From Clostridia bacterium (GTDB lineage Bacteria > Bacillota_A > Clostridia > UMGS1883), in assembly GCA_017467965.1 (NCBI GenBank), contig JAFUJZ010000010.1:1-64000 (forward strand): a stretch of DNA of 64,000 nucleotides. Direction: 5' to 3'. Position 1 is the first letter of the stretch; each line of letters begins with the position of its first letter. Positions 2,609-30,585 of the stretch are shown here, piece by piece. The translations under genes and the position numbers were made by a program. The notes beneath the pieces were generated by a model that saw only the letters and a program-made list of their open reading frames with translations, did not search any database and had not been told where the DNA came from.

Positions 2609-2632
2609 TCTATATGGAAAGAGGACTTGAAA

Positions 2633-3121
2633 ATGAACGTAAAAGGTAATGTTTTTAAATATGGCGATAACGTTGACACAGACGTTATCATCCCTGCAAG
2701 ATATCTTAACACCAGTGTTGAAAAAGAGCTTGCGGCACACTGTATGGAGGATATCGACAAAACCTTTGTTACAAAGGTAAATTCAGGCGATATCATGATT
2801 GGTGGCTGGAATTTTGGCTGCGGTTCATCCCGTGAGCATGCTCCTATCGCTATTAAGGCAAGCGGTATTGACCTTATCATTGCAAAGAGCTTTGCACGTA
2901 TTTTCTACCGTAACTCTATCAATATAGGTCTTCCTATTTTAGAGAGCGAGGAATGTGTTAACGAGGCAGAAGCGGGCGATGTAATTTCCGCTGACCTTTC
3001 AAAGGGTATTATCCGTAACGAAACAAAGGGTAAAGAATACACTACAACACCCTTCCCCGAATTTATTCAGGAAATAGTAGAATGTGGTGGTTTGGTTGGT
3101 TATGCACAGCAGAAATTGTAA
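2633..3121 (+). CDS. leuD: 3-isopropylmalate dehydratase small subunit
   Basis: This 162-residue swivelling-domain subunit partners LeuC. It shows the family motifs [16 protein letters not shown] near the start and [10 protein letters not shown] in the substrate loop. The ATG at 2633 is chosen because GAGG lies eight bases before it; the in-frame TTG at 2627 is too close to that site. Immediately after its stop codon comes a 101-bp structured element, not the leuB gene. Confidence 0.95.
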
Positions 3122-3124
3122 TGC

Positions 3125-3225
3125 GGCTGAGTAAAATCGTCCATCTCGTGTTTCTGTTCTCCCTTATGTACACATAGTACACGGCGGTCAAACAGAAACA
3201 TAATCTGAACGATTTTCTTTCAGCC
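3125..3225 (+). repeat. 101-bp structured intercistronic element, copy 1
   Basis: Between leuD and leuB. The nested pairings are GGCTGA/TCAGCC (3125-3130 with 3220-3225), AAAATCGT/ACGATTTT (3133-3140 with 3209-3216), a variable 11-bp helix (3148-3158 with 3191-3201) and a terminal hairpin TGTAC/GTACA (3167-3171 with 3177-3181) with loop ACATA. Copy 2 at 13749-13849 has exactly the same length and the same ends, but a different sequence in the variable helix that still pairs. No T run follows, so it is not a simple terminator. Both copies read in the direction of transcription, so it is probably an RNA structure. Confidence 0.85.
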
Positions 3226-3254
3226 TTAGAAAAAACAGGAATGAGGAATTGAAA

Positions 3255-4313
3255 ATGATAAAAAATATAGCAGTTATTCCCGGTGACGGTATCGGCCCCG
3301 AGGTAGTACGTGAGACAATAAAGGTTTTGGACAAGGTTGCCGAAAAGTTTGGTCATGAATTCAAGTACGAGTATTTACTTGCAGGCGGTTGTTCTATCGA
3401 TGAATATGGCAAGCCCCTCACAGAAGAAACACTTGCAAAGGCAAAGGCATCTGACAGCGTGCTCTTGGGTGCTGTAGGCGGTCCCAAGTGGGAAAATATC
3501 CCCGGCATCCGTCCCGAGCAGGCACTCTTGGGTCTCCGCGGAGGCTTGGGTCTTTATGCAAATTTGCGTCCTGCAGTTATGTATAAGGAGTTAAGCGAGG
3601 CATCTCCCTTGAAGAGTGAAATCATCGGCGACGGTATCGACATTATGATTGTTCGTGAACTTACAGGCGGTATCTACTTTGGTGAAAATGGCAGAAATGA
3701 AGCGGGCGACTGGGCATATGACACTGAAAGCTATTCAAAGGCAGAGGTTGAACGCCTTCTTATCCACGCTTTTGAGATTGCAATGAAGCGCAATAAACAC
3801 GTTACAGTTGTTGACAAGGCAAACGTACTTGAATCCTCACGTTTATGGCGAGAGGTTACACGCGAGGTAGCTCCCCGTTACCCAGAGGTTGAAGTTTCGT
3901 ACCTTTATGTTGACAATGCTTCTATGCAGCTTGTACGTAACCCCCGTCAGTTTGACGTTATTGCAACAAGCAACATCTTCGGCGATATCCTTTCCGACGA
4001 AGCAAGCCAGATTACAGGCTCTATCGGTATGCTTCCCTCTGCATCCTTGGGCGAGGGCACATTTGGCATGTATGAGCCCGTTCACGGTTCCGCTCCCGAC
4101 ATTGCTGGAGAAAACAAGGCAAACCCCTTGGCAACAATCCTCTCGGGTGCTATGATGCTCCGTTATTCCTTCGGTATGCAAAAAGAAGCTGACTGCATCG
4201 AAAATGCAGTAGCAAAGGTTTTGGAAGACGGTATCCGTACAGGCGATATTGCAGGCGGAATGCCCTTTGTAGGCTGCAAAGAAATGGGCGACGCTGTTGT
4301 TGAGAGACTGTAA
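3255..4313 (+). CDS. leuB: 3-isopropylmalate dehydrogenase
   Basis: LeuB oxidises and decarboxylates 3-isopropylmalate with NAD to 2-oxoisocaproate, the third dedicated leucine step. Visible motifs are [10 protein letters not shown] at the start, [16 protein letters not shown] with the catalytic Tyr, VDKANVL with the catalytic Lys, and [11 protein letters not shown] for metal binding, then [14 protein letters not shown]. Length (352) is normal. The ATG at 3255 is preferred over the in-frame TTG at 3249 because GAGG is eight bases upstream. There is no leuA or ilv gene in the window. Confidence 0.96.
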
Positions 4314-12827: not shown

Positions 12828-13748
12828 ATGCTGTCAGGCAGAAAAGACCTTTTGGGCATTCAGGAACTTTCGAAAGAAGATATTCTCTACATTTTAGACA
12901 AGGCCGTCGAGATGAAAAAAGTTGTTTTATCCGACAATAAGAAAATTGCCGCCATGCAGGGCAAGAGCCTTATAACACTTTTCTACGAAAATTCTACAAG
13001 AACACGAACATCTTTTGAGCTTGCAAGTAAGTATATGGGTGCCTCCAGTGCAAACATTACTGCATCCGGCTCATCTATCCAGAAGGGCGAAAGCCTTATC
13101 GATACGGGTAGAACACTTGACAGCATGGGTACTGATATTATAGTTATCCGTCACAGTGCTGCAGGTGCACCGCACCTTTTGGCAAAGAATGTTAAAGCAA
13201 GCGTTGTAAACGCAGGCGACGGCATGAACGAGCATCCCACACAGGCGCTACTCGATATGTTCACAATCCGTGAAAAGAAGGGCGGATTTGAAGGGTTAAA
13301 GGTTGCAATCATCGGTGACGTTGCTCATTCCCGTGTAGCACGAAGCGACACGTACGCTTTAACAAAGCTTGGTGCAACAGTTTACATTGCAGGTCCTCCC
13401 ACACTTATCCCCCGTGATTTTGAAAATTTAGGTAATGTGGTAATGTGCGAAAGCGTTGAAGAGGCTGTCTTTGAAGCGGATGTTATCATAAACCTCCGTA
13501 TCCAGCTTGAGCGAATGAAGGCTGCGCTTTTCCCCACAGTGAGAGAGTACAGCGAGTTCTTTGGTATGAGCCTTGACCGCCTTAAGCTCGCAAAGCCTGA
13601 TGCGCTCATCATGCACCCCGGTCCCGTAAACCGCGGTATTGAAATTTCTTCTTATGTTGCAGACGGAGAAAATAGCGTTATCAATGAACAGGTTACTAAC
13701 GGTGTATCGGTAAGAATGGCGGTACTGGATATTTTGTGTAACGAATAA
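12828..13748 (+). CDS. pyrB: Aspartate carbamoyltransferase catalytic subunit
   Basis: PyrB joins carbamoyl phosphate to aspartate, the first committed pyrimidine step. The carbamoyl phosphate motif STRTRTSFE (about residues 54-62), HPTQALLD and the C-terminal HPGPVNRG are present. Length (306) is normal. No pyrI regulatory subunit is encoded nearby. The gene follows rluD after 20 bases; the pyrR regulator found at this place in Bacillus is missing. A 101-bp structured element begins at the base after its stop codon. Confidence 0.96.
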
Positions 13749-13849
13749 GGCTGAGTAAAATCGTCCATCTCACGCATTAAATCTCCATTGTGTACACAGA
13801 GTACACTGCAGTCGATTTAATACGCAATCTGAACGATTTTCTTTCAGAC
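13749..13849 (+). repeat. 101-bp structured intercistronic element, copy 2
   Basis: Between pyrB and pyrC. Pairings: GGCTGA/TCAGAC (13749-13754 with 13844-13849, one mismatch), AAAATCGT/ACGATTTT (13757-13764 with 13833-13840), a variable helix (13772-13783 with 13814-13825, 10 of 12 paired) and a hairpin GTGTAC/GTACAC (13790-13795 with 13801-13806) with loop ACAGA. The ends and inter-helix segments CCATCTC and AATCTGA are identical to copy 1 at 3125-3225, whereas the variable helix is rewritten. It ends 41 bases before the pyrC start. Confidence 0.85.
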
Positions 13850-13890: not shown

Positions 13891-15165
13891 ATGAAATTAC
13901 TTGTAAAAAACGGTCACATTATTGACCTTAAAAACGAAATAGATATGTACGGTGACATCCTTATTTTAGACGGTGTTATTGTACAGATTGCAGAAAAAAT
14001 CGAAGATAGTGAAGCCGAAGTTATTGATGCCGGCGGTATGGTAGTGTCTGCAGGCTTAATCGATATGCACGTACATCTCAGAGAACCCGGCTACGAATAT
14101 AAAGAAGACATCAAGACGGGTACGCAGGCAGCTGTAGCAGGTGGCTTTACATCTGTTTGCTGTATGCCAAATACAAACCCTGTTTGTGACAACGCTACTG
14201 TTGCAAACTTTATAAAGAGCCGTGCCGAAAAGGTAGGCAGTTGCCGAGTTTTCCCTGTAGGAGCAATCACAAAGGGCTTAAAGGGCGAAGAGCTCAGTGA
14301 AATGGGCGAAATGAAAAAAGAAGGCATTGTAGCGGTTTCCGATGACGGCAGACCCGTTGAAAACGGTTCTGTTATGCGTCGTGCACTTCTCTACGCTTCT
14401 CATTTTGACCTTCCTGTAATCAGCCACTGTGAAGAATTATCGCTTCTTGACTCAGGTCATATGAATGATTCCGAAACATGCACACGCCTTGGTTTAAGAC
14501 CGATTGTTCCCGCAGTTGAAGAGGCAATGATTGCCCGCGATATTTTAATCGCAGAGCATGAAGGCAAAAAGGTACACATCGCTCATGTAAGCACAAAGGG
14601 CGGTATTGAATTAATCCGTCAGGCTAAAAAGAGAGGCGTACAGGTTACATGCGAAACAGCTCCTCACTATTTCTCTCTTACAGACGAGGCTGTAGAGGGA
14701 TTTGACACAAATGCAAAGATGAATCCTCCCCTTCGCAGTCAGGACGACGTTGACGCTGTTATCGAGGGTCTTTGTGACGGCACAATCGATGCTATCATCA
14801 CAGACCATGCTCCTCATCATATTGACGAAAAAAATCTTGAATTTGAATATGCGGCAAACGGTATTGTAGGCTTGGAAACTTCTCTTGCACTTAGTATTAC
14901 TTATCTTGTAAAGACGGGCAAAATGACACTGGCTGAAATGCTTTCCAAGATGACATATAATCCTTCAAACATTCTCAATCTCGGACTTGGCGAAATTGCC
15001 CTCGGTGCAATCGCTGACCTTACAATTTTTGACCCCGACGAAATTTGGACAGTAGATGTTAATAAATTCTACTCCAAGAGCAAAAACTCTCCTTATAACG
15101 GATTTACACTCTCGGGCAAGGCTCATATGACAATTGTTGAAGGTAAAGTAATGTACGAAAACTGA
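13891..15165 (+). CDS. pyrC: Dihydroorotase
   Basis: A 424-residue type I dihydroorotase that cyclises carbamoyl aspartate. The metal-binding DMHVHLREPGYEYKED (about residues 55-70), HCEELSLL, HIAHVST and ITDHAPHH motifs are all present, including the His-x-His pair and the late Asp. A GGGAGG ribosome site precedes the ATG. It starts 41 bases after the structured element. Confidence 0.96.
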   Translation: MKLLVKNGHIIDLKNEIDMYGDILILDGVIVQIAEKIEDSEAEVIDAGGMVVSAGLIDMHVHLREPGYEYKEDIKTGTQAAVAGGFTSVCCMPNTNPVCDNATVANFIKSRAEKVGSCRVFPVGAITKGLKGEELSEMGEMKKEGIVAVSDDGRPVENGSVMRRALLYASHFDLPVISHCEELSLLDSGHMNDSETCTRLGLRPIVPAVEEAMIARDILIAEHEGKKVHIAHVSTKGGIELIRQAKKRGVQVTCETAPHYFSLTDEAVEGFDTNAKMNPPLRSQDDVDAVIEGLCDGTIDAIITDHAPHHIDEKNLEFEYAANGIVGLETSLALSITYLVKTGKMTLAEMLSKMTYNPSNILNLGLGEIALGAIADLTIFDPDEIWTVDVNKFYSKSKNSPYNGFTLSGKAHMTIVEGKVMYEN

Positions 15166-23561: not shown

Positions 23562-26500
23562 ATGAGAATGAAAAAAGTTTTAAGTCTTGTTCTCGCGGTG
23601 GTGATGACGCTGAGCTTTGTGCCGTCAGTTTACGCTGACGATATGGTGCTTGAAAGCTACAGTGTGAATTCTGCTACCACTATTGAAGGTCAGATGCCGA
23701 TTCTGCCTGACAGAGCAACACTTATATTCGAAAACGGTGATGTATTGATTGAATACATCACATGGAATGAGTTTGATGAAAGTCTGTATGCCACGGAAGG
23801 CACCTTTGAGGTAACAGGCGTTACAGAATCAGGCTATGAGGTAAGGACAACTGTTACGGTTGAAAAAAATTCCGATACAGATATTGCCTCCGGTCTTATT
23901 GCATACTATAACTTTGACAACATAGGAACAAGCCCGTCTGTGATTTCTGACGTTTCCGGTAACGGAAACGACGCAACTGTTTTGAATACTGTTGTTGCAG
24001 GCGACGGAGGCTGGTTACAGGGTGCAAATAATACCCTCACGATTACAGATGACGGTATTGCTAATTTCCCCGGTAACACCAATGAATGGTGGAATAATTA
24101 TTTAGGTGCAGCTTTAAAGCTTCCTAATAATATAAACTCCGGTGTTGAAAGCTTTTCCTTCTCTGCATGGATTAAGGCAGACGGAGATTATACATATGCA
24201 AATAACATGACAAGATTTTTCGACTTTGGTAATCTTGGCAGTGGCTCAAATAACGCATATAACAGTATTTTTGCAAGATACACATCCTCCTCGGGACTTC
24301 TTCGCATTCAGGACAGAGACATTAACAAATACCAGGAAGCAACGATTTCATCTCGTCCTTTTACGGATGTTTGGGGCCACTTTGTTTTTACATACGAAAA
24401 AAATGAGGAAACAGGCTATTACGAGACAAAGGTATATGTAAATGGTGAAGTTGTTCCCGAATTTACAACAACTGATGTTTATACACGCGCACTTTCCGAT
24501 TTGGGTACACTCACAGATGTAAATAACGGCTTTTTTATCGGTCGTACTGTATGGGGTGCCACAAATCAGCAGGTTACAGACAACCCTGACTTCAAGGGAC
24601 AGATGGACGAAATCCGTCTTTACTCACGTGGGTTGACAAAAGGTCAGGTGCAGTATATTTACGAGACAACAGCTCCCGTAGGTATGATCGAAATGACAGA
24701 TTACTACGTTGATGATGTAACAACCCTTGCAGGAGACTATCCTCTTTTGCCTGAAACAGTAACTGTTTACTATAATACAGGCGCTGAAAAGGAAATGAAC
24801 GTTACATGGGATGTTATCTCTTCTGACGAATACGCCCAGGAAGGTAGCTTCATGGCAGGTGGATATACAGAAGAGGGTAACTATGTTGAACTTAAAGTTA
24901 TCGTTATAAAGAAGGATGCCTCCACACTTAACGAGGGACTTCTCGCTTATTACACGTTTAACGATGATGCTGAGAACCCCGACACAATTATTGACGCCTC
25001 CGGAAATAATAATAACGCAATTGTACACAATCTTTATCAGGAGGTTTCCTCCCGTTGGGGTAATGTGACTATTGATAAGAAGGTTACTGTTGCCGACGGC
25101 GTATTGTATTTTCCCGGTGCTGTAATAGGCGAAGATGTAGGATTGGGCGGACGCGAAAGAAGCTATTACTACGCAGGCCCTGCAATCCGTATGCCCGACG
25201 GTATTAACGAGGGTGCAGAGGAATTTACATATGCTGCATGGATTTATGCAGACACAGATTACCGCTATGCGTCTTCTCTCCAGAGATTTTTTGACTTTGG
25301 TAACGATGTGAGAGATTCCTTCTTCTTCCGTTATGTTCCCTCGACGGGCGAATCTCGCTTCCAGGACAGAGGTGTGGGCTCAGGTAGTGACGACGCAAAT
25401 TCACTTGTCGCAGCAACCCTTGAGGAGAATCCTTTTGCAGATAAGTGGGCGCATCTTGTTGTAACATATGAAAAGAGCAGTGAAGGTGAATACTACACTC
25501 CTCATATCTATGTTGACGGCGTTGAAAGATACGAGTATGACAATACACTTACAACCCTTACGCGTGCTTTTGGTGATAGTGTATCGTCCTCAAGCTCAAA
25601 CTACGGTATGTGGATTGGTAAAACACAGTGGGCATTTGATTCCTCTCAGGCGGCAAATAACCCCGAGTTCAAAGGTAAAATGGACGAAATCCGTCTTTAC
25701 GACAGAGCTCTTAGTGCAAGTGAAGTAGCTGAACTTTATAATGCAAAGAAACCCTCCGATGTTCCTGTTGATTACGACAGTATGCCTCAGACTAAGATTG
25801 CAATAACAGAGGATGTTGAACTCAGCGGCAAATACCCCTCCACAAATATGAACGGCGAAACACAGATGCTTGTATCATCAAATAACGGTGCGGCATATAC
25901 GCGCTACGGACTGATGAGAACAAGCGATTTATCAGCGGGCGAAATTGCCTCCCTTGCAAACTGTGAGAAGGCAGTTTTGAGCGTTTATGTAACACTTATT
26001 GACAACACAGGTGATAACGAATTCTACTGCTACGGCTTAACAGGCGATAGTAACGATTGGGATGTTGATGCCGTTACATATGAAAATTACACCGACACAA
26101 TAGGCGGCAGTATCACTGATGTGGGAGTTTCTGCAGCAGGCGAGCTTTTAGATACACAGATTGCAACAGGTCAGACAAGGGATTTCTATATGCAGTGGGA
26201 TGTTACTGAGTTTGTGAAGGCACACGCTGCAGAAGGATTTAGTTTCCTTCTTACTTGTGGCAGTGACGTTGCATATATTAATACAAGTGAATCTAATTTG
26301 GAAGGTCAGATGCCCGAAATTATTGTTTATCAGCAGGGCACACCTATCACTGTAAATAGAGTTGACACAGAAGGCAATCAGATTTCCTCTTCTGTTGTTT
26401 ACGGCGTGGCAGGCAGTAGCTATACATATAATGTAGCAGACGCACTTGTAAGCTACAACAATTCAATTTATGTTGTTAATAAAGAGCTTTCCTCTCTTAC

Positions 26501-28577
26501 TGTTGAGTCCGTAACAGGCGAAGATGTAATAGAGGTTGTTTACGAAAAAGCAACAGATATAAGATGTGACAGCGTAAATGTGAGAACATACGTTGGCAAA
26601 GCACCTACACTTCCGAGAGTACTCAATGTTTATGCTGGTAACTATAGTGCACTCTTTGCAGTACAGTGGGAAACAATCGATTCCTCACTCTATGCCCAAA
26701 AGGGTGAATTCACAGTTAAGGGTACTATATTGGGTACAGATGTGACCCTTGATGCAAATGTTGTTGTATTCCCCGAATACAACGGTCAGGTAGGCGGCGA
26801 CTTGGTACTCTATATCTATACTGACGGCGAGCTTTATGAAGAAAAGCGCATCAACAAATCCTATGGTTCATCCTTTACACTTGATACCGGCTACGAAAAC
26901 TACCTCGGCAGCCTTTATGTGCTTGACAATATTACAGGCGATATTGACCAGATTGGTCAGAGCATTGCAATGAACAGTCTCAACCAGCATGTTGAATTGT
27001 ACTATGTAATGAAGGAAGCTATCGAAGGCGATTTAACCGTTAAGATAAAGGCAGACAATTTTGAAGCTACAAGCTATACAATGACAGCGACTGCGAAGGT
27101 TTTGAATACAGAAAAAACAGACGAAACAGTTAAGATTGTTATTGCTGATTACAACGACAATGGTGAAATGACAAATGCTATAACAGAGAGTGAAGTGGTT
27201 GCAAGCAGAACAGGCGAAACGGTAACAATCACAAAGAGTATTGTATATGATGAAGCAAAGCACAAAAACAGCGTTGTATACCTCTGGACAGACGATATGG
27301 AACCCGTGGCAGAAGAGATTTATGTTTGCGATGTTCCCGTATCCGGATATATGTCTGAAGAGGTTTATGCAATGATTCCCACATATGAAAGTGCGGTAAC
27401 AGCTGTAAGAAGTGCAAACGACTACTGGCAGAGTAATTATTCCTACAACACCTGGACAAACGGTATTCACCCGTCATTCTGGGCGAGAGCGGCTTATCAT
27501 ACAGGTAATATGGAAGTTTACAAATTGTTAGGTGATGAAGATTATCTTCAGCACTCTATCGATTGGGCTAATTATAACAACTGGGTAGGCAATCCCTCAA
27601 CTGCAGACCCGAGTCAGTGGACATGGGGTTACAACCAGGATTATAACTCCAGCGCCGTTCTCTTCGGTGACTGGCAGATATGCTTCCAGAGCTATCTTGA
27701 CATGTATGAATTCGGCGTAGAGGATGCAAACCTTGACAGAGTATATGAGGTTATGGACTATCAGATAAGTAAGGATGAAGACGGTTTCTGGTGGTGGGCA
27801 GATGCTCTTTACATGGTAATGCCTGTTATGAGTAAGCTTTATAAGCACACAGGCGATGAAAAGTATCTTGATGCTTTGTATAAGTATTTCAGATACGCTA
27901 AGGAGCTTATGTATGACGGCCCCGGCGGTATCCCGACAAGTAGTGACGGTTATACAACAAGTGCATCTCTTAAAAATGGTGCATATTATTCCGACCCCGA
28001 CAACTACGCATATCTCTTCTATCGTGATGCAAACTACGTATATCCCTTGAACCCCAACTCCGGTCACGAAACGGAAAAGAACTTCTGGGCAAGAGGCGAC
28101 GGTTGGGTATTCGCAGGACTTGCAAAAGTACTTGCCGATATGCCCTCGACTTACGAGCATTATGATGAATTCTACAACACCTATATGGAAATGGCCCCTG
28201 CTATTATCGCTTGTCAGCAGACAGATGAAAATGGCTACGGATTCTGGACACAGAGTATGCTTCAGGATTACCCCAAGGGTACAAACGGTAACGATGAAGG
28301 CTACGAAACAAGCGGTACAGCGTTCTTCACATACGGTTTGTTCTGGGGTATCAACAATGGTCTTCTTGATGAGGAAACTTATCTTGAACCCGCAATCCGT
28401 GCATGGGGATATCTTGAAAACGTAGCACTCCACGATAGTGGTAAGGTTGGCTACGTACAGCCTATCGGTTCCAATGCGACACAGGCAACGCCCTATGATA
28501 CTACACAGGACTTTGGTGTAGGTGCGTACCTCCTTGCAGCCTGCGAAGCTGCACGCTATGCACAAAGCCAGGAATAA
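23562..28577 (+). CDS. Secreted multidomain protein with two LamG domains and a C-terminal GH105/GH88-type hydrolase
   Basis: A 1671-residue exported protein. Signal peptide: about 1-25 (ending VPSVYA). Domain order by eye: Ig-like group 4 (about 27-105); LamG (about 110-367, starting LIAYYNFDN and ending GQMDEIRLYSR); Ig-like (375-450); LamG (460-727); DNRLRE-like (745-923, beta-rich); MucBP-like and Ig-like stretches (925-1260); catalytic domain (about 1275-1671). The last has the unsaturated-uronyl-hydrolase pattern: YHTGNMEVYKLLGD, FWWWADALYMVMP with the likely acid Asp, FWARGDGWVFAG. It should remove unsaturated uronic acid from lyase-made pectin-type fragments. No LPXTG or SLH anchor is visible. 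A TATAAT at 23510-23515 may be the -10 box; I see no good -35. Confidence 0.85.
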   Translation: MRMKKVLSLVLAVVMTLSFVPSVYADDMVLESYSVNSATTIEGQMPILPDRATLIFENGDVLIEYITWNEFDESLYATEGTFEVTGVTESGYEVRTTVTVEKNSDTDIASGLIAYYNFDNIGTSPSVISDVSGNGNDATVLNTVVAGDGGWLQGANNTLTITDDGIANFPGNTNEWWNNYLGAALKLPNNINSGVESFSFSAWIKADGDYTYANNMTRFFDFGNLGSGSNNAYNSIFARYTSSSGLLRIQDRDINKYQEATISSRPFTDVWGHFVFTYEKNEETGYYETKVYVNGEVVPEFTTTDVYTRALSDLGTLTDVNNGFFIGRTVWGATNQQVTDNPDFKGQMDEIRLYSRGLTKGQVQYIYETTAPVGMIEMTDYYVDDVTTLAGDYPLLPETVTVYYNTGAEKEMNVTWDVISSDEYAQEGSFMAGGYTEEGNYVELKVIVIKKDASTLNEGLLAYYTFNDDAENPDTIIDASGNNNNAIVHNLYQEVSSRWGNVTIDKKVTVADGVLYFPGAVIGEDVGLGGRERSYYYAGPAIRMPDGINEGAEEFTYAAWIYADTDYRYASSLQRFFDFGNDVRDSFFFRYVPSTGESRFQDRGVGSGSDDANSLVAATLEENPFADKWAHLVVTYEKSSEGEYYTPHIYVDGVERYEYDNTLTTLTRAFGDSVSSSSSNYGMWIGKTQWAFDSSQAANNPEFKGKMDEIRLYDRALSASEVAELYNAKKPSDVPVDYDSMPQTKIAITEDVELSGKYPSTNMNGETQMLVSSNNGAAYTRYGLMRTSDLSAGEIASLANCEKAVLSVYVTLIDNTGDNEFYCYGLTGDSNDWDVDAVTYENYTDTIGGSITDVGVSAAGELLDTQIATGQTRDFYMQWDVTEFVKAHAAEGFSFLLTCGSDVAYINTSESNLEGQMPEIIVYQQGTPITVNRVDTEGNQISSSVVYGVAGSSYTYNVADALVSYNNSIYVVNKELSSLTVESVTGEDVIEVVYEKATDIRCDSVNVRTYVGKAPTLPRVLNVYAGNYSALFAVQWETIDSSLYAQKGEFTVKGTILGTDVTLDANVVVFPEYNGQVGGDLVLYIYTDGELYEEKRINKSYGSSFTLDTGYENYLGSLYVLDNITGDIDQIGQSIAMNSLNQHVELYYVMKEAIEGDLTVKIKADNFEATSYTMTATAKVLNTEKTDETVKIVIADYNDNGEMTNAITESEVVASRTGETVTITKSIVYDEAKHKNSVVYLWTDDMEPVAEEIYVCDVPVSGYMSEEVYAMIPTYESAVTAVRSANDYWQSNYSYNTWTNGIHPSFWARAAYHTGNMEVYKLLGDEDYLQHSIDWANYNNWVGNPSTADPSQWTWGYNQDYNSSAVLFGDWQICFQSYLDMYEFGVEDANLDRVYEVMDYQISKDEDGFWWWADALYMVMPVMSKLYKHTGDEKYLDALYKYFRYAKELMYDGPGGIPTSSDGYTTSASLKNGAYYSDPDNYAYLFYRDANYVYPLNPNSGHETEKNFWARGDGWVFAGLAKVLADMPSTYEHYDEFYNTYMEMAPAIIACQQTDENGYGFWTQSMLQDYPKGTNGNDEGYETSGTAFFTYGLFWGINNGLLDEETYLEPAIRAWGYLENVALHDSGKVGYVQPIGSNATQATPYDTTQDFGVGAYLLAACEAARYAQSQE

Positions 28578-29382: not shown

Positions 29383-30585
29383 ATGGCACTTACGTATGAA
29401 TCCGTAGTTGAAAAAATAAGAAGAGCAGACACTTATTGGCAGAAGAACTTTGACTTTGTTGACTGGAATGGTGGAGCACATCCTGCTTTCTGGGACAAGG
29501 CTGCATACCACACGGGCAACATGGAGGTTTACAAGCTTTTAGGTGACAAGGAACTTTTACAGTACACAATTGACTGGGCGAATTTCTGCAACTGGAAGGG
29601 TAACGATTCAGACGCTGACCCCTCTGAATGGTTCTGGGAATATAATCAGACACAGGGATCTGCCGCTGTTATTTTCGGCGACTGGGAAATCTGCTTCCAG
29701 GTATATATTGACCTTTATAATGCTGGCATTGACGGTGCTACAATTGATAGAGTAATGTATGTTATCAATCATCAGATTGAAAAGGATGTTGACAACTACT
29801 GGTGGTGGGCAGATGCGCTTTACATGGTAATGCCCGTGTTCACAAAGATTTATAAGATGACAGGGGATGAAAAGTACCTTGACGCTCTCTACAAATACTT
29901 CCGCTACGCAAAGGAATTGATGTATGACGGTAAGGGCGGTATTCCCACATCGGCTGACGGCTATACAACAACAGCAAAGATACTTGAGGGTGCGAATTAT
30001 TCAAACCCTGACGATTACAAAAATCTTTTCTTCCGCGATGCAAACTTTGTATACCCCTTAAAGCCCAACCCCGGTCATGAAAATGAAAAGAATTTCTGGG
30101 CAAGAGGTAACGGCTGGGTATTTGCAGGTCTTTGCAAGGTTCTTAGTGATATGCCTACTGACTACAAGCACTATGACGAGTTCCTCACAACCTATAAAGA
30201 AATGGCGCCTGCAATAGCCTCATGTCAGTTGAAGGATAGTGAAGGTAACGGTTTCTGGACACAGAGTATGCTTCAGAATTATCCTACAGGCAATAACAAC
30301 AACGACTACGGCTACGAAACAAGCGGTACAGCCTTCTTTACATATGGCTTCTTCTGGGGTATCAACAACGGTATTTTAGATAAGGAAACTTACCTTGATA
30401 CAGCACTTTCCGGCTGGAAATATCTTAGTGAGGTTGCACTCCACGAAGACGGCAAGGTAGGCTATGTTCAGTACATAGGTTCTAATGCGACCGAAGCTAT
30501 GAGCTATGATACAACACAAAACTTTGGTGTTGGTGCGTTCCTCTTAGCTGCATGTGAAACAGCTCGTTACGTACAGAATAACTAA
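29383..30585 (+). CDS. Cytoplasmic GH105/GH88-type unsaturated uronyl hydrolase
   Basis: A 400-residue single-domain hydrolase without a signal peptide. It aligns end to end with the C-terminal domain of the secreted 1671-residue protein: shared runs include AAYHTGNMEVYKLLGD, WWWADALYMVMPV, KYFRYAKELMYDG, and ending VGYVQ.IGSNAT. The (alpha/alpha)6 family splits unsaturated uronic acids from oligosaccharides (YteR/RhiN-type). GGAGAGG precedes the ATG and the HAD gene is 14 bases upstream, so the two are probably one unit. It would act on imported oligosaccharides, while its paralogue acts outside. Confidence 0.85.
   Translation: MALTYESVVEKIRRADTYWQKNFDFVDWNGGAHPAFWDKAAYHTGNMEVYKLLGDKELLQYTIDWANFCNWKGNDSDADPSEWFWEYNQTQGSAAVIFGDWEICFQVYIDLYNAGIDGATIDRVMYVINHQIEKDVDNYWWWADALYMVMPVFTKIYKMTGDEKYLDALYKYFRYAKELMYDGKGGIPTSADGYTTTAKILEGANYSNPDDYKNLFFRDANFVYPLKPNPGHENEKNFWARGNGWVFAGLCKVLSDMPTDYKHYDEFLTTYKEMAPAIASCQLKDSEGNGFWTQSMLQNYPTGNNNNDYGYETSGTAFFTYGFFWGINNGILDKETYLDTALSGWKYLSEVALHEDGKVGYVQYIGSNATEAMSYDTTQNFGVGAFLLAACETARYVQNN

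Follow-up and report, generated by a model that had tools for sequence, protein, structure and literature searches.

Between leuD and leuB, in a stretch of clostridial DNA of 64,000 nucleotides (the window in what follows), lies an element of 101 bp that recurs between pyrB and pyrC with several blocks shared to the base and one helix almost wholly rewritten, which raises the question of what keeps a structure whilst its sequence changes, and on which strand. The best reading of the evidence assembled below, with a probability of roughly 0.6, is a non-autonomous mobile hairpin, REP/ERIC-like and of the small intergenic palindrome kind.

Two copies in the window

The initial annotation described two elements of exactly 101 bp at 3125-3225 and 13749-13849, and both the coordinates and the length are borne out (Table 1). 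It also held that their ends and linkers are shared base for base; this stands for GGCTGAGT, AAAATCGT, CCATCTC, AATCTGA and ACGATTTT, but the outermost 3' ends are one base apart (TCAGCC and TCAGAC). The helix that it placed at element positions 24-34 and 67-77 pairs on the plus strand as claimed, with 10 Watson-Crick pairs and one wobble in copy 1 and 9 of 11 pairs in copy 2, or 10 of 12 if the next pair is counted. On the minus strand copy 2 pairs at 11 of 11 positions, because its two plus-strand failures turn into G.U wobbles, and copy 1 at 10 of 11, because its plus-strand wobble turns into A.C. Fold energies for the minus versus the plus strand are -51.0 versus -39.3 kcal/mol in copy 1 and -44.1 versus -27.7 kcal/mol in copy 2; none of 200 shuffles matches the fold of either copy on either strand, the z-scores for copies 1 and 2 being -5.6 and -4.3 on the plus strand and -8.4 and -7.0 on the minus strand.

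The covariance model finds only these two places in the window, mismatch-free matches to the shared 15-base blocks are likewise confined there to copies 1 and 2, and the pair ranks third among the direct-repeat families of the window. Two other direct repeats (D1 at 27653-28277 and D2 at 29664-30288, 72-74% identical and 2011 bp apart) fall within open reading frames 23562-28577 and 29383-30585. The gene orders are leuC-leuD-copy 1-leuB and pyrB-copy 2-pyrC. To call the first element a copy after leuD was therefore correct, but leuD is not the sole host gene of the family; elements of unrelated subtype also lie behind leuD-like genes in genomes G001 (L198) and G034 (L269).

No known riboswitch, T-box or terminator had been recognised in the element, and Rfam, in which no RNA family matches it above chance, agrees: the whole window gives no match at the gathering threshold, copy 1 gives SNORA69 only (15 bits, E 3.2, where the gathering score is 47), and in 11 loci nothing matches over an element itself. 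A blastn search with copy 1 for a plasmid or phage origin returned no match, and a search of a literature collection found no description of this hairpin family.

Table 1. Coordinates in the window of the two hairpin copies, their parts and the adjoining genes
Feature	Position	Strand	Remarks
leuD	2627..3121	+	TAA 3 nt ahead of copy 1
Copy 1 of hairpin element	3125..3225	- (folded strand, antisense to leuD/leuB)	model 105.8 bits on -, 37.5 on +
Copy 1 outer stem arm	3125..3130	-	partner 3220-3225; fold and covariation (helix 1, 90.8% of cells paired)
Copy 1 core, minus-strand 3' side, GAGATGGACGATTTT	3133..3147	-	one GA of the tandem G.A motif
Copy 1 variable inner helix, first arm	3148..3158	-	partner 3191-3201
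Copy 1 apical hairpin, TGTAC-ACATA-GTACA	3167..3181	-	GTAC...GTAC in 59/96 copies
Copy 1 variable inner helix, second arm	3191..3201	-	partner 3148-3158
Copy 1 core, minus-strand 5' side, AAAATCGTTCAGATT	3202..3216	-	other GA of the tandem G.A motif
Copy 1 outer stem arm	3220..3225	-	partner 3125-3130; fold and covariation
leuB	3249..4313	+	listed ORF; ATG at 3255
pyrB (aspartate carbamoyltransferase)	12828..13748	+	TAA abuts copy 2 directly
Copy 2 of hairpin element, pyrB/pyrC junction	13749..13849	- (folded)	model 104.6 bits on -, 30.4 on +
Copy 2 core, minus-strand 3' side	13757..13771	-	shared 15-base block
Copy 2 core, minus-strand 5' side	13826..13840	-	shared 15-base block
pyrC (dihydroorotase family)	13891..15165	+	follows copy 2

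A family whose structure is kept on the antisense strand

A scan for the core pattern over one genome per GTDB species returned eight stretches, five of which (L123, L124, L126, L127 and L128) are hairpins of this kind; their assemblies are titled Clostridia or Ruminococcus, with a single one titled Saccharibacteria. The remaining three and one match in a viral contig were judged by their fold to be chance and left out (L121, L122, L125 and L129, four of the nine pattern matches). The covariance model matches all five source genomes, with 15, 7, 12, 38 and 3 matches, counts that include a few opposite-strand duplicates. At E <= 0.001 it matches 8 of 21 genomes of one family and 57 of 95 of one Clostridia order, the weakest of the matching genomes resting on matches near E 1e-4, and 2 of 61 genomes of the Saccharibacteria family have a match, the starting genome among them. 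In a sample of the phylum, with 10 candidates scored per genome, at least one of 398 genomes scored, namely G004 itself, a figure that is an underestimate because G004's own count dropped from 31 to 10 under the same scoring. The 187 model matches in the fetched loci reduce to 155 places, 153 of them distinct, in 39 genomes including the window. The covariance-model search that the initial annotation had proposed thus yields well over 100 further copies in related genomes, with variable helices that pair; the two of 101 bp are members of a genuine family with many copies, large in gut Clostridia and apparently not described before.

As delimited by the model, 136 of the 155 copies are 100-103 nt long. 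With the structure taken from copy 1, a MAFFT alignment of 7 sequences has 93.4% of its cells paired, against 38-50% in slid controls, and double changes in 14 of 31 pairs. In 96 copies, whose alignment was fitted to the covariance model and is hence biased towards it, 92.9% of pair cells pair, against 37-44% in slid controls, and both sides change in 29 of 31 pairs; none of 500 shuffles attains the observed paired-cell share. All six pairs of the outer stem (helix 1) vary on both sides in these copies, so that across the family its sequence is rewritten and its pairing kept, and the terminal arms differ among copies (GGCTGA, GTTTGA, GTCTGA, GTGTGG). Selection on structure, which had been argued from a helix replaced with its pairing kept, is strongly supported by covariation on this scale. 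The relatives include metagenome-assembled genomes, which might suggest chance similarity or an assembly artefact, but the copies come from many separate genomes and the shuffles fall short of the observed pairing, and this explanation is refuted. Inside the stem a GA/GA core motif is present in 70 of the 96 copies, several of those that lack it having a Watson-Crick pair in place of a G·A, and GTAC-loop-GTAC caps 59 of the 96.

Evolution keeps the structure of the minus strand, which runs antisense to the genes. This strand folds better in 146 of 147 distinct copies of 96-105 nt with RNA parameters and in 144 of 147 with DNA parameters, the mean fold being -48.3 kcal/mol for the antisense versus -33.2 for the gene strand. 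Its core, approximately CAGATTG ... GTGAGATG, sets tandem G·A pairs beside U·G/G·U pairs; the same positions on the plus strand are mismatches, and the tandem G·A and wobble core is exclusive to the minus strand. In 58 copies of less than 70% identity, isolated wobbles with Watson-Crick neighbours were counted outside the core: 46 favour the antisense strand and 19 the gene strand, the split being 23 to 5 in the outer part and 23 to 14 in the inner helix, so that the inner helix alone is weak evidence for the strand.

The wobbles bear directly on a processing or stability hairpin of the mRNA strand, comparable to the effects of REP and ERIC on upstream mRNA. Such a hairpin would be well placed directly behind operon stop codons, and the gene strand does still fold at about -33 kcal/mol, but the G.U pairs of the minus strand are A.C on the mRNA (columns 24-29 with 89-94), and a function on the gene strand should favour the opposite wobble pattern, which counts against this quite improbable reading. 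Among the three options offered by the initial annotation, an intercistronic element on the mRNA strand becomes less likely because it is on the antisense strand that evolution keeps the structure; the mobile palindromic element is the option favoured by empty sites, near-identical copies and presence or absence in close relatives.

Gene junctions, empty sites and recent spread

Orientation at gene junctions is fixed, and helices are rewritten yet paired on the antisense strand. Among 137 copies classified from crude ORF calls, the folded strand is antisense at 109 co-directional junctions and sense at 4, the rest lying between convergent (12) or divergent (12) genes. Flanks of 450 nt or more on either side are available for 138 copies; for these the same crude calls give an ORF of at least 120 codons that ends within -60 to +25 nt in 95 cases on the antisense side, as against 21 on the other. 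Of the 95 scored stops, 91 fall within -12 to +13 nt of the element edge, with 18 exactly abutting and 30 at least 5 nt inside the element, whose left end on the gene strand often gives TGA or TAA stops (GTTTGAATAA). In co-directional spacers longer than 90 nt (n=40) 18 elements hug the upstream gene versus 4.7 expected if placement were uniform, the corresponding figures being 3 of 9 versus 0.8 in convergent and 0 of 10 versus 1.0 in divergent spacers. On the downstream side, an SD-like motif with an ATG follows within 60 nt on the gene strand in 90 of 151 copies, as against 4 of 148 in the mirror control, and an SD match occurs in the 18 nt just before the element in 24% versus 5-13% further off. 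In the Saccharibacteria genome G002, 4 of 7 matches lie directly behind tRNA-Ile, tRNA-Ala, tRNA-Asn or RNase P RNA. A test of orientation relative to replication found a non-negative GC skew of the gene strand in 105 of 109 cases; orientation set by replication was not adopted, as this result is confounded by gene skew.

The copies are many and dispersed, and a junction that has the element in one genome can be cleanly empty in a relative. The gltB-gltD junction of G001 has the element inserted between its native GGAGG and the ATG, with a new GAAGGGAATG stretch behind it; GAAGGGA, which follows the insertion, is the substitute for the separated GGAGG. In G032, with flanks 91-96% identical to those of G001, a plain spacer of 16 nt runs from stop to ATG with no element. 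Of 30 fetched gltB-gltD loci 2 carry the element and 28 do not, as judged by eye from the junction sequences. At window copy 2 the native SD seems to be kept downstream of the element, so that an SD swap is not universal among insertions.

Neither leuD-leuB nor pyrB-pyrC gives a model match in the fetched relatives (0 of 5 at each), several of which have other, unrelated repeat-like sequences at the same spot, and these junctions seem open to several element families. Relatives seen here include L308 (G016), L309 (G003) and L310 (G017) for leuD-leuB and L328, L329 and L330 for pyrB-pyrC; among the unrelated sequences, repeat-like or palindromic, that follow these stops directly are AGTGCAGAATTAAGGAGCAAATTTTG..., GGGACACGCCTG...GGCATGTCCCG and CTCCCTCAGTCGCCTTCGGCGACAGCTCCCTC.

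Recent spread is seen in G068, where, the query locus apart, a unit of ~138 bp is matched 17 times (79-100% identity, with 10 matches at >=95%) and includes a shared 32-nt module that is SD plus ATG on the gene strand. Thirteen of these copies were seen with flanks, at differing junctions, though L250 and L245 2682 share a flank and some copies lie at contig ends. No offset gives a consistent target-site duplication in 147 copies, and a guide-like match of elements to their flanking sequence was looked for and not found.

Where different genomes have an element at the same junction, four pairs are mutual best matches among the 155 copies: L145/L208, L138/L212, L135/L164 (the L135 contig stops shortly behind the element) and L170/L179. 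For the first three, similarity is higher in the element than in its coding flanks, at 101/103 versus 75% and 72%, 90/102 versus 65% and 78%, and 100/102 versus 78%, and this could be selection in place; in L170/L179 it is not (86/103 versus 87%). The gltB-gltD elements of G001 and G043 are mutually best-matching. For L138/L212 separate insertion or transfer is preferred over descent because the site is empty in G032 and other fetched loci, and independent arrivals of one element type at a shared junction in different species are possible, gltB-gltD being a candidate example. Purifying selection in place at gltB-gltD was considered and is unsafe, as G032 and 27 other fetched loci have no element. 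Other shared junctions (L154/L265, window copy 2/L158 and L199/L267) hold unrelated subtypes.

The main rival is an RNA that acts in place, in which transcription running antisense into the 3' end of a gene would give transcripts that fold into the stable hairpin and are stopped or cut there, whilst the sense mRNA, which folds poorly, is read through. It would account for the strand-asymmetric pairing, with the stronger mean fold of the antisense strand (-48.3 versus -33.2 kcal/mol), for the fixed orientation and for the position at gene 3' ends, and the G002 matches right behind tRNA genes or RNase P RNA (4 of 7) and the three junctions at which the element outconserves its flanking genes are also in its favour. 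However, a scan of the window for the sigma-70 consensus, the promoter type within its scope, found no promoter-like site ahead of the minus-strand hairpin; T-rich tracts lie downstream of the hairpin on both strands; G032 lacks the element at gltB-gltD despite its closeness to G001; and an intrinsic terminator needs neither a near-fixed length nor a conserved inner motif. On this balance we consider an in-place RNA unlikely.

Mechanism and relation to known elements

If the family is a mobile hairpin, an enzyme may read the folded minus strand, as RNA or single-stranded DNA, by its shape rather than its terminal sequence, the probable cues being the stem, the tandem G.A plus U.G/G.U motif and the apical GTAC hairpin, and insertion would proceed without target duplication. 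Between the stop codon of one operon gene and the start codon of the next, an insertion can leave both genes working, which would explain why surviving copies sit there, the left end of the element often offering a stop for the upstream gene and an SD-like site often following its right end. It is possible, if rather doubtful, that this amounts to a new class of element, for which the shape of a single strand, DNA or RNA, is all that is recognised and whose entire sequence can therefore drift compensatorily; it would home to operon translation-initiation junctions and replace the ribosome-binding site there.

Y1 transposases and reverse transcriptases were tried as drivers and set aside, being undetected in several copy-rich genomes, although this absence is weak evidence because assemblies may be incomplete. 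The Y1 transposase domain PF01797 is present in 49 of the 95 genomes of the order, among them the copy-free G029, G094 and G117, and was undetected in the copy-rich G001, G034, G058, G059, G063 and G068, whose assemblies are maybe incomplete. A retroelement, in which minus-strand RNA is copied to DNA and then inserted, would fit the RNA-like covariation through G.U and the lack of a consistent target duplication, and in the genus of G068 RVT_1 (PF00078) was detected in 5 genomes out of 16, including the copy-rich G004, G059 and G071; its non-detection in the copy-carrying G068, G063, G058 and G060 (20, 32, 16 and 13 matches) stands against this very improbable origin. Beside the first 75 copies, a search for an autonomous partner recognised nothing among the listed recurrent clusters other than housekeeping genes and frames that run through the elements.

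The passages on REP in PMC2817692 and PMC3733652 describe dispersed imperfect palindromes of 20-40 bp, mainly downstream of coding regions, with a conserved GT(A/G)G head; according to the relevant part of PMC2817692 they can form stem-loops when single-stranded, and according to that of PMC3733652 their ends often give a stop codon. The hairpin family resembles REP in lying downstream of genes and in being able to supply a stop, as the 30 of 95 scored stops inside the element indicate. Unlike REP it is ~101 bp long (mostly 97-105 nt as delimited by the model), its helices are all rewritten around a conserved inner noncanonical motif, and it has almost one orientation; no conserved GTAG or GT(A/G)G head was found in 151 tallied copies, and unlike REP/RAYT several copy-rich genomes have no detected Y1 transposase.

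Nearer in size are ERIC/IRU, RUP, Correia and other MITE-like repeats, which the sections of PMC2229807 drawn on here describe as ~100-155 bp, mostly intergenic and non-autonomous, with orientation-dependent effects on mRNA for ERIC and functional terminal inverted repeats for RUP. The hairpin family is likewise small, mostly intergenic and non-autonomous, and is set apart from them by these descriptions: unlike those of RUP as portrayed in that account, its ends vary in sequence whilst their shape is kept, and unlike a MITE it has neither conserved terminal inverted repeats, 6 of 6 outer-stem pairs being variable, nor a consistent target-site duplication in 147 copies.

A folded antisense strand also brings to mind single-strand recombination sites. 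The attC sites of integrons form a hairpin of the bottom strand with variable arms at gene ends, and their own ends have the R-box form GTTRRRY / RYYYAAC. An attC-type site would agree with a one-strand hairpin, antisense to the gene and located at its end, with variable arms; the terminal arms, however, vary between copies and have no R-box at the inspected ends, and the window copies are single insertions in housekeeping operons outside any cassette array, which leaves this the least probable of the mobile alternatives.

Small mobile palindromes are usually defined by sequence, whereas this family is defined by the structure of one strand, and clustering by sequence would have difficulty in grouping its diverged copies, so that elements of this sort may be undercounted. 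The family offers a natural experiment in which an insertion into an operon is made harmless by a stop on one side and a ribosome-binding site on the other, as well as a clear target in the search for a transposition enzyme that reads shape, and it cautions that strong intergenic covariation need not imply a regulator on the mRNA strand.

Longer versions of 143-145 nt occur at L195 2090-2234 and 4490-4633 (G001) and L218 1501-1643 (G032), both L195 copies having an added palindromic stretch with GGACACTTTGTGTCC near the apex, and head-to-tail triple arrays with a period of ~103 nt occur at L191 1697-2003 (G004) and L237 8711-9013 (G059). A promoter-like TTGACT-N17-TATAAT and a native-looking GAGGTGACATG precede the element at L245 2682-2784 (G068), with a short frame, ATG AAA GTT TGA, left ahead of the hairpin. 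Between the element and the SD-like site, L165, L171, L173 and L175 (G006) as well as L172, L174 and L176 (G014) have another, small GC-rich hairpin, with the sequence CCGCCGCnnnnGCGGCGG or nearly so, and several G086 copies have an analogous GTGCC...GGCAC hairpin.
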